A stretch of DNA of 64,000 nt from Arenimonas caeni (lineage in GTDB: Bacteria; Pseudomonadota; Gammaproteobacteria; Xanthomonadales; Xanthomonadaceae): NCBI RefSeq assembly GCF_003024235.1, contig NZ_KZ679092.1, forward strand, positions 1 to 64,000. The letters are read 5' to 3'. The notes below the pieces were generated by a model. That model ran no database searches, was not told where the DNA came from, and saw only the letters and a program-made list of their open reading frames with translations. Position 1 is the first letter of the stretch, and each line of letters begins with the position of its first letter. A program made the position numbers and the translations under genes. Positions 13,491-17,818 of this stretch are shown here, piece after piece.

Positions 13491-15398
13491 TCAGGCGACC
13501 GGGCCGCTCTCCGCACGCAACCGGGCAAGGAAGGCATCGACCGTCATCGTGCCCAGGTCTTCGCCAGACCGCGTGCGCACCGCGATCATCCCATTCTCCT
13601 TCTCGCGGTCGCCAACCACCAGCAAGTACGGGATCTTCTGCAGCGTGTGCTCGCGGATTTTATAGCCGATCTTCTCGTTCCGCAAATCGGCCTGTACCCG
13701 GACCCCTTGATTCGAAAGGGTTTTCCGGACCTCCTCGACCCAATCCGCCTGGGCGTCGGTGATGTTCAGCACCACGGCCTGGACCGGGGCCAGCCAGGCC
13801 GGGAAGGCGCCGGCATGGTTCTCGACCAGGATGCCGATGAAGCGTTCCATGGAGCCGACGATGGCGCGGTGCAGCATGACCGGGTGCCGGCGCTGGCTGT
13901 TCTCGTCCACGTACTCGGCGCCCAGGCGGGCCGGCATCATGAAGTCCACCTGCATCGTGCCCAGCTGCCAGGTGCGGCCGATGGCGTCGCGCAGGTGGTA
14001 CTCGATCTTCGGGCCGTAGAAGGCGCCCTCGCCCGGCAGTTCCTCCCAGGCCACCCCGCAGGAGGCCAGGGCCTTGCGCAGGGCGTCCTCGGCCTTGTCC
14101 CAGGTGGCGTCGTCACCCAGCCGGTTGTCCGGCCGCAGGGCGATCTTGATCTGCACGTCCTTGAAGCCGAAGTCCTCGTAGACCTTCAGCGCCTGGCGGT
14201 GGAAGGCCGTGACCTCGGCCTCGACCTGGTCTTCGGTGCAGAACACGTGGCCGTCGTCCTGGGTGAAGCCGCGCACGCGCAGGATGCCGTGCAGCGCGCC
14301 CGAGGGCTCGTTGCGGTGGCAGCCGCCGAACTCGCCGTAGCGGATCGGCAGGTCGCGGTAGCTGTGCAGGCCCTGGTTGAAGATCTGCACGTGGCCCGGG
14401 CAGTTCATCGGCTTGAGCGCATACGTGCGCTTCTCCGACTCGGTGAAGAACATGTTGTCCTTGTAGTTGTCCCAGTGGCCCGACTTCTTCCACAGCGAGA
14501 CATCCAGGATCTGCGGGCCGCGCACCTCGTCATAGCCCGACTCGCGGTAGACGCGGCGCATGTACTGCTCCACCACCTGCCACAGCTGCCAGCCCTTCGG
14601 GTGCCAGAACACCAGGCCCGGGGCCTCTTCCTGGATGTGGAACAGGTCGAGCTGCTTGGCGATCTTGCGGTGGTCGCGCTTCTCGGCTTCCTCGAGCTGC
14701 GTGAGGTAGGCCTTGAGGTCCTTGTCGTTGAGCCAGGCCGTGCCGTAGATGCGGCTGAGCATCGCGTTGTTGTGGTCGCCGCGCCAGTAGGCGCCGGCCA
14801 CCTTCATCAGCTTGAACGCGCGCAGCTTGTCCGTGCCCGGCACGTGCGGGCCGCGGCACAGGTCGGTGAACTCGCCCTGCGAGTACAGCGACAACTCTTC
14901 GTTCGCCGGGATCGACTCGATGATCTCGGCCTTGTAGTGCTCGCCCAGGCCGCGGAAGAAGGCCACGGCCTCGTCGCGGCTCTTGACGCTGCGGGTGACC
15001 GGCAGCGCTTCCTTGACGATCTTCTGCATCTCGGCCTCGATCGCCGGCAGGTCCTCGGGCGTGAACGGGCGCTCGTAGGCGAAGTCGTAATAGAAGCCGT
15101 TGTCGATGACCGGGCCGATGGTGACCTGCGCGCCCGGGTACAGGCGCTGCACGGCCTGGGCCAGCAGGTGCGCGGTGGAGTGGCGCAGCACGTCCAGGGC
15201 GTCGGGGTGCTTGTCGGTGACGATCTCGAGCGAGGCGTCGTTCTCGATGCGGAAGCTGGCGTCCACCAGCTGGCCGTCGACCTTGCCGCCGAGGGCGGCC
15301 TTGGCCAGGCCGGCGCCGATCGAGGCGGCGACTTCGGCGACCGTGACGGGATTTTCGAAGGGACGGCGGCTGCCGTCGGGGAGCGTGATGTTGATCAT
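13491..15398 (-). CDS. thrS: Threonyl-tRNA synthetase
   Basis: 635 residues. Domains in order: TGS (about 1-62), editing domain with [11 protein letters not shown] and the cysteine-bearing FTDLCRGPH (about 70-225), class II core with the zinc ligands MNCPGH, motif 2 [19 protein letters not shown] and motif 3 [11 protein letters not shown], and an anticodon-binding domain (about 535-635). It charges tRNA-Thr and edits Ser-tRNA-Thr. The start is MINITLPDG; ten codons of open frame upstream lie beside the attenuator. A leader peptide and terminator precede it. Confidence 0.97.
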
Positions 15399-15426
15399 GG
15401 CGGTCTGGGGGCGGTACGCGGGCAAC

Positions 15427-15447
15427 AAAAAAGGGCGCCAGGCGCCC
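15427..15447 (-). terminator. thrS attenuator terminator, with competing antiterminator
   Basis: On the minus strand GGGCGC-CTG-GCGCCC followed by six T's is a compact intrinsic terminator 28 nt before the thrS ATG. The 7-mer GCCTGGC (15443-15437), which forms the centre of this hairpin, is perfectly complementary to GCCAGGC (15467-15461) just after the leader peptide. The two structures exclude each other. A ribosome stalled on the Thr codons would leave 15461-15467 free to pair and block termination; a ribosome at the leader stop codon would cover it. Confidence 0.75.
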
Positions 15448-15474
15448 TCGCGGATGCGAAGCCTGGCAGGTCGT

Positions 15475-15498
15475 CTATCGGGCCGTGGTAGTGCTCAT
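15475..15498 (-). CDS. thrS leader peptide MSTTTAR
   Basis: ATG AGC ACT ACC ACG GCC CGA TAG encodes seven residues, three of them consecutive threonines, in a leader directly upstream of the threonyl-tRNA synthetase gene. The Thr codons occupy 15484-15492. The stop codon is 8 nt before the antiterminator strand and 28 nt before the terminator hairpin, the geometry of classical amino-acid attenuators. The ribosome site is weak by eye (GAG about 11 nt upstream). Too short for an ordinary ORF search. Confidence 0.75.
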
Positions 15499-15554
15499 GT
15501 CGCACGCTCGACGCCGGTTTCCCGGGGCCACCTTCTTCCTTGGATACGCCGTCA

Positions 15555-15583
15555 AAGGTAGGACGGGGCAAGGGCCAAGTCAA
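15555..15583 (-). promoter_or_regulatory. Promoter of the thrS operon
   Basis: On the minus strand TTGACT (15583-15578) and TACCTT (15560-15555) are separated by exactly 17 bp. This predicts a transcript starting near 15548, about 50 nt before the leader peptide and 150 nt before thrS, so that the attenuator is inside the leader RNA. Confidence 0.6.
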
Positions 15584-15662
15584 CGCCGGCCCCGGAAACG
15601 CGGAAGCCGCCCGGAGGCGGCTTCGACGGGATTTCCTGCGTTCCATCCCGATGGATCGGGGA

Positions 15663-15737
15663 TGGTGGGCGGTACAGGGTTCGAACCTGTGACCCCTACC
15701 ATGTCAAGGTAGTGCTCTACCGCTGAGCTAACCGCCC
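15663..15737 (-). tRNA. tRNA-Val (anticodon GAC)
   Basis: A 75-nt cloverleaf with acceptor GGGCGGT/ACCGCCC, D-arm GCTCAGCGGTAGAGC, anticodon stem CTACC/GGTAG around TTGACAT with anticodon GAC, T-arm ACAGG-TTCGAAC-CCTGT and encoded CCA. It reads GUC and GUU. Confidence 0.96.
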
Positions 15738-15750
15738 GCAAGGGCCGCGA

Positions 15751-15779
15751 AGTATAACAAGCGGCCCGGGCCACGACAA
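15751..15779 (-). promoter_or_regulatory. Promoter of tRNA-Val
   Basis: On the minus strand TTGTCG (15779-15774) and TATACT (15756-15751) are spaced by 17 bp and end 13 bp before the mature tRNA 5' end, a normal stable-RNA promoter position. Confidence 0.65.
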
Positions 15780-15814
15780 CGGGCCATGCCGCCGGGCCGG
15801 ACCGGCCGGCGGGC

Positions 15815-17818
15815 TCAGGCCATCAGGCCCTGCTCCCGGAGCCGGTGGATCTCGTCCCGGACCCTGGCGGCCTCCTCGAACTCGAGGTCGCGGGCGTGCT
15901 GGTGCATCTTGGCCTCCAGCTGCCTGAGGCGGGCGGCCAGCTGGGCCGGGTCGAGGGTGGCGTAATCGGCGCCCGGCTCGGCCACCTTGCGCCCGCGGGC
16001 CTCGGCCGGCTCGGACCGGGCCCCCTCCATCACGTCCATCACCGCGCGCACCACCGACTTGGGGGTGATGCCGTGGGCCTGGTTGTACTCGACCTGCTTC
16101 TGGCGGCGGCGGTCGGTCTCGTCCATGGCCGCCTTCATCGAGGCCGTGATCCGGTCGGCGTAGAGGATGGCCTTGCCGCGCAGGTTGCGGGCGGCGCGGC
16201 CGATGGTCTGGATCAGCGAGCCGGTGGAGCGCAGGAAGCCTTCCTTGTCGGCGTCGAGGATGGCCACCAGCGACACCTCCGGCATGTCCAGGCCTTCGCG
16301 CAGCAGGTTGATGCCCACCAGCACGTCGAACACGCCCAGGCGCAGGTCGCGGATGATCTCGACGCGCTCGACCGTGTCCACGTCGCTGTGCAGGTAGCGC
16401 ACCTTGACGTCGTGCTCGGCCAGGTAGTCGGTGAGGTTCTCGGCCATCTTCTTGGTCAGCGTGGTGATCAGCACGCGGTCGCCGAGCTTCACCCGGGCGT
16501 GGATCTCCGAGAGCACGTCGTCGACCTGGGTAGCCACCGGGCGCACTTCGACCTCGGGGTCGACCAGGCCGGTGGGGCGCACCACCAGTTCGACCACCTG
16601 CTCGCCGGACTTCTCGATTTCGTACTTGCCCGGCGTGGCCGAGACGAAGATGGTGCGCGGCGAACGGCGCTCCCACTCCTCGAACTTCAGCGGCCGGTTG
16701 TCCAGCGCCGAAGGCAGCCGGAAACCGAACTCGACCAGGGTTTCCTTGCGCGAGCGGTCGCCCTTGTACATGGCGCCGATCTGCGGAACGGTGACGTGCG
16801 ACTCGTCCACCACCAGCAGCGCGTCCGGCGGCAGGTAGTCGAACAGGCAGGGCGGCGGCTCGCCGGGCATCTGCCCGGTCAGGTGCCGGCTGTAGTTCTC
16901 GATGCCCGAGCAGAAACCCACCTCGGCCATCATCTCGATGTCGTACATGGTGCGCTGCTGCAGGCGCTGCGCCTCGACCAGCTTGTTGGCCTTGTACAGC
17001 ACCTCCATGCGCTCCTTGAACTCGGCCTTGATGGTCTCGATGGCCTCGAGAACGGTGCGCCGGGTGGTGACGTAGTGCGACTTGGGGTAGAGCGTGAAGC
17101 GCGGCAGCTTGCGGCTGACGTGGCCGGTGAGCGGGTCGAACATCGACAGGTTCTCGATCTCGCCGTCGAACAGCTCGATGCGGATCGCCTCGATCTCCGA
17201 TTCGGCCGGGTGTACGTCGACCACCTCGCCGCGCACGCGGAAGGTGCCGCGCACCAGCTCGGTGTCGTTGCGGCTGTACTGCATCTCGGTGAGGCGGCGG
17301 ATCAGCTCGCGCTGGTCGATGCGGTCGCCGCGCACCAGGTGCAGCACCATCCGGAAGTATTCGTTCGGGTCGCCCAGTCCGTAGATCGCCGACACCGAGG
17401 CCACCACGATCGCGTCGCGGCGCTCGAGCAGGGCCTTGGTCGCCGACAGGCGCATCTGCTCGATGTGCTCGTTGATGTTGCTGTCCTTCTCGATGAAGGT
17501 GTCGGTGCTCGGGATGTAGGCCTCGGGCTGGTAGTAGTCGTAGTAGCTGACGAAGTACTCGACCGCGTTGTGCGGGAAGAAGCTCTTGAACTCGCCGTAG
17601 AGCTGGGCAGCCAGGGTCTTGTTCGGCGCCAGCACCAGGGTCGGCTTCTGCACCGCCTCGACCACGTTGGCGATGGTGAAGGTCTTGCCCGAGCCGGTGA
17701 CGCCGAGCAGGGTCTGGTGCGCCAGGCCGGACTCGAAGCCCTCCACCAGGCGCCTGATCGCCTGCGGCTGGTCGCCGGCGGGCTGGTAGGGCGAGACGAT
17801 CTGGAAGCGGTCGGACAT
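15815..17818 (-). CDS. uvrB: Excinuclease ABC subunit B
   Basis: 667 residues, the usual length. Walker A is GVTGSGKT (residues 39-46); the damage-probing beta-hairpin follows as [19 protein letters not shown]; the helicase motif II is VVDESH; motif VI is [14 protein letters not shown]-terminal UVR coiled-coil domain ([18 protein letters not shown]) binds UvrC. With UvrA it locates bulky DNA lesions and loads UvrC. The start is [18 protein letters not shown], where homology begins. It is divergent from the FimT-like gene; I see no convincing LexA box in the spacer. Confidence 0.97.

Follow-up and report, generated by a model that had tools for sequence, protein, structure and literature searches.

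We found that thrS of Arenimonas caeni is very probably controlled by a ribosome-mediated (leader-peptide) transcription attenuator, through which its expression would follow the supply of charged tRNA-Thr. The window, i.e., the whole 64,000-nucleotide stretch of contig NZ_KZ679092.1 that was analysed, carries the thrS leader on its minus strand, between tRNA-Val(GAC) (15663-15737) and the thrS start (15398). Computation revealed conserved parts, a matching of antiterminator and terminator, and a predicted switch in the window. The features are:

15555-15583, minus strand: promoter-like sequence TTGACT-N17-TACCTT, from sequence (TTGACT at 15583-15578, TACCTT at 15560-15555)
15528-15534, minus strand: Shine-Dalgarno-like (SD) sequence AAGGTGG of the mini-ORF, parted from the ATG by a hairpin
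15510-15529, minus strand: SD-to-ATG hairpin GGCCCCGG-GAAA-CCGGCGTC with an internal C.C mismatch; shows covariation
15475-15498, minus strand: leader mini-ORF MSTTTAR* (ATG AGC ACT ACC ACG GCC CGA TAG); frame, length and Thr codons conserved
15461-15468, minus strand: antiterminator 5' strand TGCCAGGC, beginning 7 nt past the stop codon; partner 15436-15443
15436-15443, minus strand: antiterminator 3' strand GCCTGGCG, which overlaps both arms of the terminator and its loop
15427-15449, minus strand: intrinsic terminator GAGGGCGC-CTG-GCGCCCTT (stem 15449-15431, six T at 15432-15427)
13491-15398, minus strand: thrS, threonyl-tRNA synthetase (ThrRS), the controlled gene; open frame
15663-15737, minus strand: upstream tRNA-Val(GAC), found by ARAGORN; abuts the leader in some relatives

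In the proposed mechanism, RNA polymerase would start near 15548, as judged from the promoter-like site, and a ribosome would translate the seven-codon peptide as the leader is being transcribed. If charged tRNA-Thr is plentiful, this ribosome would reach the stop codon and cover part of 15468-15461, the antiterminator would not form, and the terminator would then halt transcription ahead of thrS. When charged tRNA-Thr is scarce, the ribosome would wait at ACT ACC ACG, the antiterminator would form, and transcription would enter thrS. We infer that the leader is transcribed and translated, that termination takes place in vivo, and that charged tRNA-Thr is the signal. One point against an attenuator is that two or three control codons are few.

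All the parts named in the preliminary description of this DNA were found in their places. Sequence inspection located TTGACT-N17-TACCTT, which is absent from a stricter promoter scan of positions 15350-15900 because its -10 hexamer has 3 of the 6 consensus bases and the scan demands 4; one other promoter-like site, upstream of tRNA-Val, was returned by the same scan. The seven-codon ORF with ACT ACC ACG in a row is present at 15498-15475 on the minus strand. The terminator with its six U's is also there, with 28 nt between the last T (15427) and the thrS start, and it was recovered in a terminator scan of 15350-15900, which gave 2 terminators against a shuffle mean of 0.4. The 7-bp antiterminator pairs GCCAGGC (15467-15461) with GCCTGGC (15443-15437), and can be extended to 8 bp by counting the flanking T-G pair. 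Hence a short ORF with codons for the regulated amino acid, presumably translated, lies between a promoter-like site and an intrinsic terminator that precedes the structural gene.

The threonine codons of the mini-ORF

Matches to thrS were detected in 61 of 61 genomes searched, some of them being fragments or weak class-II relatives. Upstream regions of thrS were collected from 80 named genome contigs and 50 further genome stretches, the window's own included; these 130 regions gave 128 distinct ones (2 duplicates). Motif grouping placed 57 of them in type A (window included) and 8 in type B. The remaining 63 were divided by a grouping of our own into 35 Burkholderiales (by genus or title), 5 beta-other, 7 gamma-other and 16 other Lysobacterales. 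By genus names, type A is mostly Xanthomonadaceae and Rhodanobacteraceae; three of its leaders have no hairpin, and one has a short hairpin. Type A was defined by GYGYG(Y)GACATG or AGGTGGCACATG, a motif that ends at the ATG, so that the likeness of the bases preceding the ATG partly follows from the definition.

The preliminary description had asked for an alignment of thrS upstream regions in relatives, and this comparison revealed that both the Thr mini-ORF and the terminator are conserved; its interpretation thereby survived the refuting condition it had named, a lack of conserved mini-ORF or Thr codons among relatives. All 57 type-A mini-ORFs have 6-9 sense codons. Codon 3 is Thr in 57/57, as ACT in 56/57, and codon 4 is Thr in 49/57, varying synonymously (ACC 42, ACG 5, ACA 1, ACT 1). 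ACT is otherwise rare: it accounts for 13 of 740 Thr codons in 27 ORFs of the window, and for 39 of 1263 in the thrS genes of 51 type-A loci. Three loci with the same hairpin element that the motif missed (L107, L100 and L130) have ACG, ACA and ACA at codon 3; with them included, codon 3 is ACT in 56/60 and Thr in 60/60. Leaders found later agree, with Thr at codon 3 in 34/34 (ACT in 14/14 of one set and in 19/20 of the other, the remaining one being ACG), a count biased toward Thr since the covariance model used includes codons 1-4. Codon 4 of these leaders is Thr in 13/14 and 16/20, respectively. Among the later leaders, L175 repeats L005, L176 and L189 are possible duplicates, and L182, missed by the motif, was read from the sequence. 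Type B ORFs start with MTRT in 7/8 cases, the exception being L109 (MTRVT).

Amino acid enrichment in mini-ORFs before thrS was evaluated against dinucleotide shuffles. The leaders used were 56 of the 57 of type A, one with an N being set aside, and cluster representatives (30 type A, 4 type B, 15 other Lysobacterales, 21 Burkholderiales, 5 beta-other and 7 gamma-other). Thr was the most enriched of 19 amino acids in four groups, with z values of 10.0 in type A (next Gly, 4.3), 8.4 in Burkholderiales (next Phe, 1.6), 5.2 in other Lysobacterales (next Trp, 3.8) and 4.0 in type B (next Val, 3.8). It was not the top amino acid in the mini-ORFs of beta-other (z 0.7) or gamma-other (outside the top five). 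Gly, Val and Trp thus also exceed the shuffles in single groups, and CGA and ACT are rare codons in these genomes; both facts would suit a mini-ORF that senses slow translation in general, under an antibiotic or any starvation, rather than threonine. We hold this reading to be hardly likely at all: Thr ranks first in four groups, in the two largest far above the next amino acid, and does so before a Thr-specific gene, and type-A codon 4 changes synonymously yet mostly stays Thr.

Two natural variants of one genus, L100 (genome G014) and L130 (G001), read ACA CCC instead of ACT ACC. Both keep one Thr at codon 3, have a second one further along an ORF that is longer, and have lost the U-run behind the terminator stem. 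Their genomes are of ∼2.0-2.1 Mb and gave no match to PF00742 (homoserine dehydrogenase). Judged from the sequences, these changes may represent decay of the switch. At locus L118 (G029), a terminator-like stem and T-run are kept, and no Thr mini-ORF was found. Genome G000 also gave no PF00742 match, this domain being present in 49 of 61 genomes searched, nor any match to PF14821 (threonine-synthase N-terminal domain), an absence that is weak since PF14821 matched in only 5 of 14 control genomes. In G000, the thrS attenuator may have been retained by a threonine auxotroph.

Terminator, antiterminator and ribosome position

Among the 65 type A and B leaders, 61 have a terminator after the mini-ORF, located 19-33 nt past the stop codon in 59 of the 61; no recognisable terminator was found in the other four (L020, L022, L031 and L048). 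In the sequence stretches shown for L136, L180, L186 and L188, no T-run was seen by eye. Such a terminator might merely end an upstream tRNA-Val transcript (or a small RNA), the mini-ORF being incidental. tRNA-Val(GAC) does lie upstream, and fewer than 120 nt separate its end from the mini-ORF in 8/57 type-A and 6/8 type-B loci. This explanation leaves the Thr enrichment, the conserved frame and the antiterminator matching unaccounted for, and the leader is conserved where it has its own promoter-like site: a loose TTGA/TA-box lies upstream of the mini-ORF in 29/57 type-A leaders, none of which has a tRNA-Val ending within 120 nt. It therefore carries almost no probability in our assessment. 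As separate observations, no type A or B leader combines a promoter-like pattern with a closely abutting tRNA-Val, and the first same-strand tRNA met within 700 nt upstream of thrS is tRNA-Val(GAC) at 18/57 type-A, 7/8 type-B and 19/35 Burkholderiales loci.

The strand just past the stop codon pairs with the terminator arm and loop although both vary (GCCAGGC/GCCTGGC, GCCACGC/GCGTGGT, CGAGG/CCTCG). The mean energy of own antiterminator pairings in 27 cluster representatives was -16.66 kcal/mol, compared with -14.06 (sd 0.47) for a re-pairing null; none of 20,000 random re-pairings was as good as the own pairing, a result that is not a formal probability since the representatives are related. 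In the 44-nt switch region of the window, folding favours the antiterminator pairing (-20.2 kcal/mol), and the folding energy of this region has a z of -1.92. Against shuffles, the energy is unremarkable, with the same z of -0.40 for the leader as a whole and for its portion starting at the ATG. As the window leader by itself folds no better than shuffles, the case rests on the comparison of relatives. There, frame, Thr codons, terminator and pairing are conserved beyond chance.

The effect of ribosome position was modelled as the equilibrium probability of the terminator, the RNA being taken as free from the base that lies 13 nt downstream of the first A-site base. The preliminary description had argued from distances that a stalled ribosome exposes the antiterminator strand and that one at the stop codon covers it, and had proposed folding of the leader RNA; the model bears this out for the window. 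When ACT occupies the A site, the terminator is predicted to form with a probability of 0.01, which becomes 1.00 once the stop codon has arrived there. Each of codons 2 to 7 gives 0.00-0.02, and the formal start-codon position gives 0.61. Over 61 type A/B leaders, the mean rises from 0.45 (Thr codon) to 0.90 (stop), a mean difference of 0.45, versus 0.05 with shuffled spacers. Clear switching (a change of more than 0.5) is predicted in 29/61 leaders, window included, and the change is below 0.05 in 22/61, among which L006 and L095 go in the wrong direction. An exclusive antiterminator that depends on ribosome position was thus found in the model for the window, and for types A and B as a set.

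The equilibrium model is fragile, since close relatives of the window can differ: L084 goes from 0.05 to 1.00, and L083 from 0.98 to 1.00. Of the 29 leaders that switch, 7 do not exceed a probability of 0.5 until the stop codon, 12 exceed it one or two codons sooner and 10 sooner still; in 10 of the 29, the crossing comes no later than the last Thr codon. With no ribosome, the terminator probability is 0.09 for the window (read-through) and 0.67 on average over the 61 leaders, so the default state differs between leaders. For the window only, the model suggests a need for efficient translation of the leader. In Burkholderiales and other lineages, only 6 of 39 leaders change by more than 0.5, and at modelled equilibrium their antiterminators are unproven.

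The split ribosome site ahead of the mini-ORF

The mini-ORF appears to be started in an unusual way: its ribosome site is split, with an SD-like AGGUGG ∼35 nt upstream and a covarying hairpin in between. In the 57 type-A leaders, the last AGG[TAG] before the mini-ORF ATG is 33-38 nt away in 51, 28 nt in 1 and 9 nt in 3, and is absent in 2; an SD core at the usual 4-16 nt was found in just 4/57. The three leaders with AGG[TAG] at 9 nt have no hairpin. At thrS itself, no SD core stands 4-16 nt ahead of the start in 45/57 type-A loci, and 27/35 Burkholderiales have one.

The hairpin was analysed in an alignment from which six of 60 rows were dropped (L016, L097, L100, L119, L120 and L130, with no, a short or a degenerate hairpin); 49 distinct sequences remained, of which 35 were used. 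In these, 85.0% of the cells are paired versus 74.3% after shuffling, and both partners have changed in 6 of 8 pairs, a number that averages 3.9 in shuffles and is reached by 23 of 500. Covariation scores 0.324, versus 0.134 for shuffles and at most 0.100 for slid partners. One position is mismatched in 27/35 leaders, and the stretch from the hairpin to the ATG is strongly alike across the alignment. Type B has an analogous hairpin, GTYC-GAAC-GRAC and variants (by eye).

A covariance model of the split-site element matched strongly (E of 5e-5 or lower), and once per genome, in 68 of 120 genomes; at E 0.01, 71 of 120 have a match. Of the strong matches, 67/68 lie directly before thrS (30 loci, 20 stretches and 17 by coordinates, window included); the remaining one (G017) is near a contig end. 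Elsewhere in the genome, a partial match to the leader-model hairpin was also observed at L162/L167 (G000:C20:25975-26001; 28.1 bits, E 2.5e-4, model positions 7-34). The short pattern CGAACTACNACC occurs in 54 of 143 genomes of the class, but its reversed control is commoner; its single match in the window's genome is inside an acetyltransferase-like ORF (by eye).

The hairpin between SD and ATG would serve ribosome loading; that it is a pause hairpin for RNA polymerase was also considered. In E. coli, the thrS operator hairpin mimics the tRNA-Thr anticodon, and this gene is the standard example of translational autocontrol by tRNA mimicry. The E. coli operator belongs to the same gene and, as described in the part of PMC3858243 available to us, is a bipartite ribosome site split by a hairpin that binds ThrRS; there the split site is that of thrS, whereas here it precedes the mini-ORF. 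By analogy, and given that the SD-to-ATG hairpin covaries, ThrRS could bind this hairpin and block leader translation, an autogenous control that would not depend on codon-specific stalling. We consider this very unlikely: by eye, the hairpin loop in the alignment is variable, mostly of about four bases, with no anticodon-like loop of 7 nt, and the Thr codons and antiterminator matching would be left unexplained. Moreover, a search of the 80 nt before thrS for a mimic (7-pair stem and 7-nt loop with GGU or CGU) was negative in 56/57 type-A loci, the one match (L004) being a T-rich stem, and in all of the type B (0/8), other Lysobacterales (0/16), Burkholderiales (0/35) and beta-other (0/5) loci, and positive in 4/7 gamma-other (1/121 for the others together). 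The four carriers are L055, L057, L059 and L077 (Litchfieldella, Halomonas, Larsenimonas and Marinobacterium); two of the four have a G-U pair. In a search for ORFs with two Thr within four codons, three of these loci showed no Thr mini-ORF, and the ORF listed for L059 runs into the mimic hairpin.

Two further candidates were rejected for the window itself. An E. coli-type thrS operator does not fit, as the 80 nt before thrS contain no mimic of the tRNA-Thr anticodon arm and the split site found is that of the mini-ORF and not of thrS. A T-box or other Rfam leader was likewise discarded, only tRNAs reaching gathering scores in the window. In ten relatives compared with Rfam at E up to 1, only tRNAs passed the cut-offs; the matches below them (miRNA, antisense, sRNA and one plastid cis-element) look like chance.

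Codon choice, other lineages and known leaders

With stricter criteria, a Thr mini-ORF was found in 28/35 Burkholderiales loci and not in the other 7 (L029, L034, L060, L062, L066, L068 and L074). The Ralstonia and Cupriavidus leaders are further upstream (MTPRTTTADKRQ* and the like). A first search found no ORF with two Thr within four codons in 21 of the 63 rest loci, and a longer search recovered such an ORF in three of them (L043, L045 and L067); some ORFs of the first search look spurious (e.g., L059, L066, L068, L073, L074 and L122). By criteria blind to CGA, 45 of the 71 type B and rest loci carry a Thr mini-ORF, and in 39 of these 45, CGA directly precedes a Thr codon, a count with fewer independent cases than 39 since many of the loci are related. 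In the thrS genes of the same 45 loci, CGA makes up 31 of 1513 Arg codons and does not occur in any of the 29 Arg-Thr pairs. The CGA-blind selection picked a non-conserved ORF for L007; a selection that prefers CGA gave 37/39, a biased figure, and the wrong ORF for L023.

Rare or weakly decoded control codons (ACU here, CGA before ACN elsewhere) would sharpen the response. We put forward, tentatively and as rather less probable than its opposite, that thrS leaders are codon-pair tuned sensors with a deliberately weak control point, either ACU or CGA-Thr, plus the split site in type A. In type A (mostly Xanthomonadaceae), the rare ACU would be read by G-U wobble. In other Lysobacterales and in Burkholderiales, Thr would come right after CGA, a rare Arg codon, and the I-A wobble of CGA in the P site would make decoding of the following codon weaker. 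The parts of the literature at hand indicate that I-A apposition allows weaker decoding (PMC5009743), and that, with an unmodified A34 in the P site, the codon-anticodon duplex that follows is reportedly less stable (PMC10454642); an I-A pair placed there may act likewise, by analogy. A leader with two or three Thr codons could then stall at a mild fall in charged tRNA-Thr, and in type A the hairpin-split site would load a ribosome on each leader. We also considered that CGA is kept in Burkholderiales for pairing with UCG downstream of the stop codon, which by eye fits Cupriavidus, but not all lineages.

If the tuning idea is true, such a sensor is an alternative to the tRNA-mimic operator of E. 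coli and explains the conservation of rare codons, and ACT and CGA-Thr offer a testable proposal on the sensitivity of leader peptides this short (six to nine codons in type A). If the attenuator itself is real, Lysobacterales/Xanthomonadales and 28 of 35 Burkholderiales loci would control thrS by a principle different from that of E. coli. The four gammaproteobacteria that carry the mimic instead would then illustrate one regulatory logic replacing another.

Leader-peptide attenuation is known, and a Thr leader before thrS has been proposed; the variant features here are the split ribosome site and the putatively tuned codons. The thrABC leader of E. coli (thrL), which controls biosynthesis genes, has a terminator and an antiterminator together with Thr codons; its Thr and Ile codons are numerous. 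Rfam has a Thr leader family. The window leader would work in the same way, but ahead of thrS. pheST is a synthetase gene under leader-peptide attenuation, for a different amino acid; we liken it by kind, not by sequence. A study by Lopatovskaya, Seliverstov and Lyubetsky (2010) reportedly treats attenuation of amino-acid and aminoacyl-tRNA operons, and may already predict part of what is described here. It is cited in the accessible part of PMC4833913.

In Streptomyces lividans, a Thr leader peptide before thrS was proposed from RNA-seq to control this gene (PMC8079986). According to the portion of that report available, thrL-thrS resembles the window in having a Thr-containing leader peptide ahead of thrS, but differs in its 18-residue peptide with two Thr, its leaderless transcript, an unclear termination and no U-run; by eye, no resemblance between the peptide given there and MSTTTAR was noticed. 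The alaS, trpS and leuS leaders of the same portion are further synthetase genes under leader-peptide attenuation, for other amino acids. The preliminary description knew of no account of this mechanism for thrS in Xanthomonadales; nor did it mention the split ribosome site with its hairpin, the nearly invariant ACT, the CGA-Thr pairs or the spread to Burkholderiales. For Proteobacteria, no report of thrS attenuation was found in a search of mostly titles and abstract beginnings, with subscription literature largely outside its scope; novelty for the gene as such does not stand, given the S. lividans proposal. In the accessible text of Naville and Gautheret 2010 (PMC2965389), threonyl-tRNA synthetase is mentioned only for E. 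coli, and a term search of the available part of PMC3110155 (Bordetella sRNAs) found neither 'thrS' nor 'threonyl'.

The genes after thrS in the window look like infC, rpmI, rplT, pheS and pheT (ORFs named by eye from the sequence), and the attenuator may affect these genes too. The infC-like ORF (minus strand) has no ATG, GTG or TTG near the expected start, and its frame points to ATA at 13454-13452, after AGGA. E. coli infC starts with AUU. The start region of infC was recognised in 21 of 67 loci, window included, and 17 of the 21 offer only ATC, ATA, ATT or CTG in the last 14 codons, ATC being the commonest of these start candidates.
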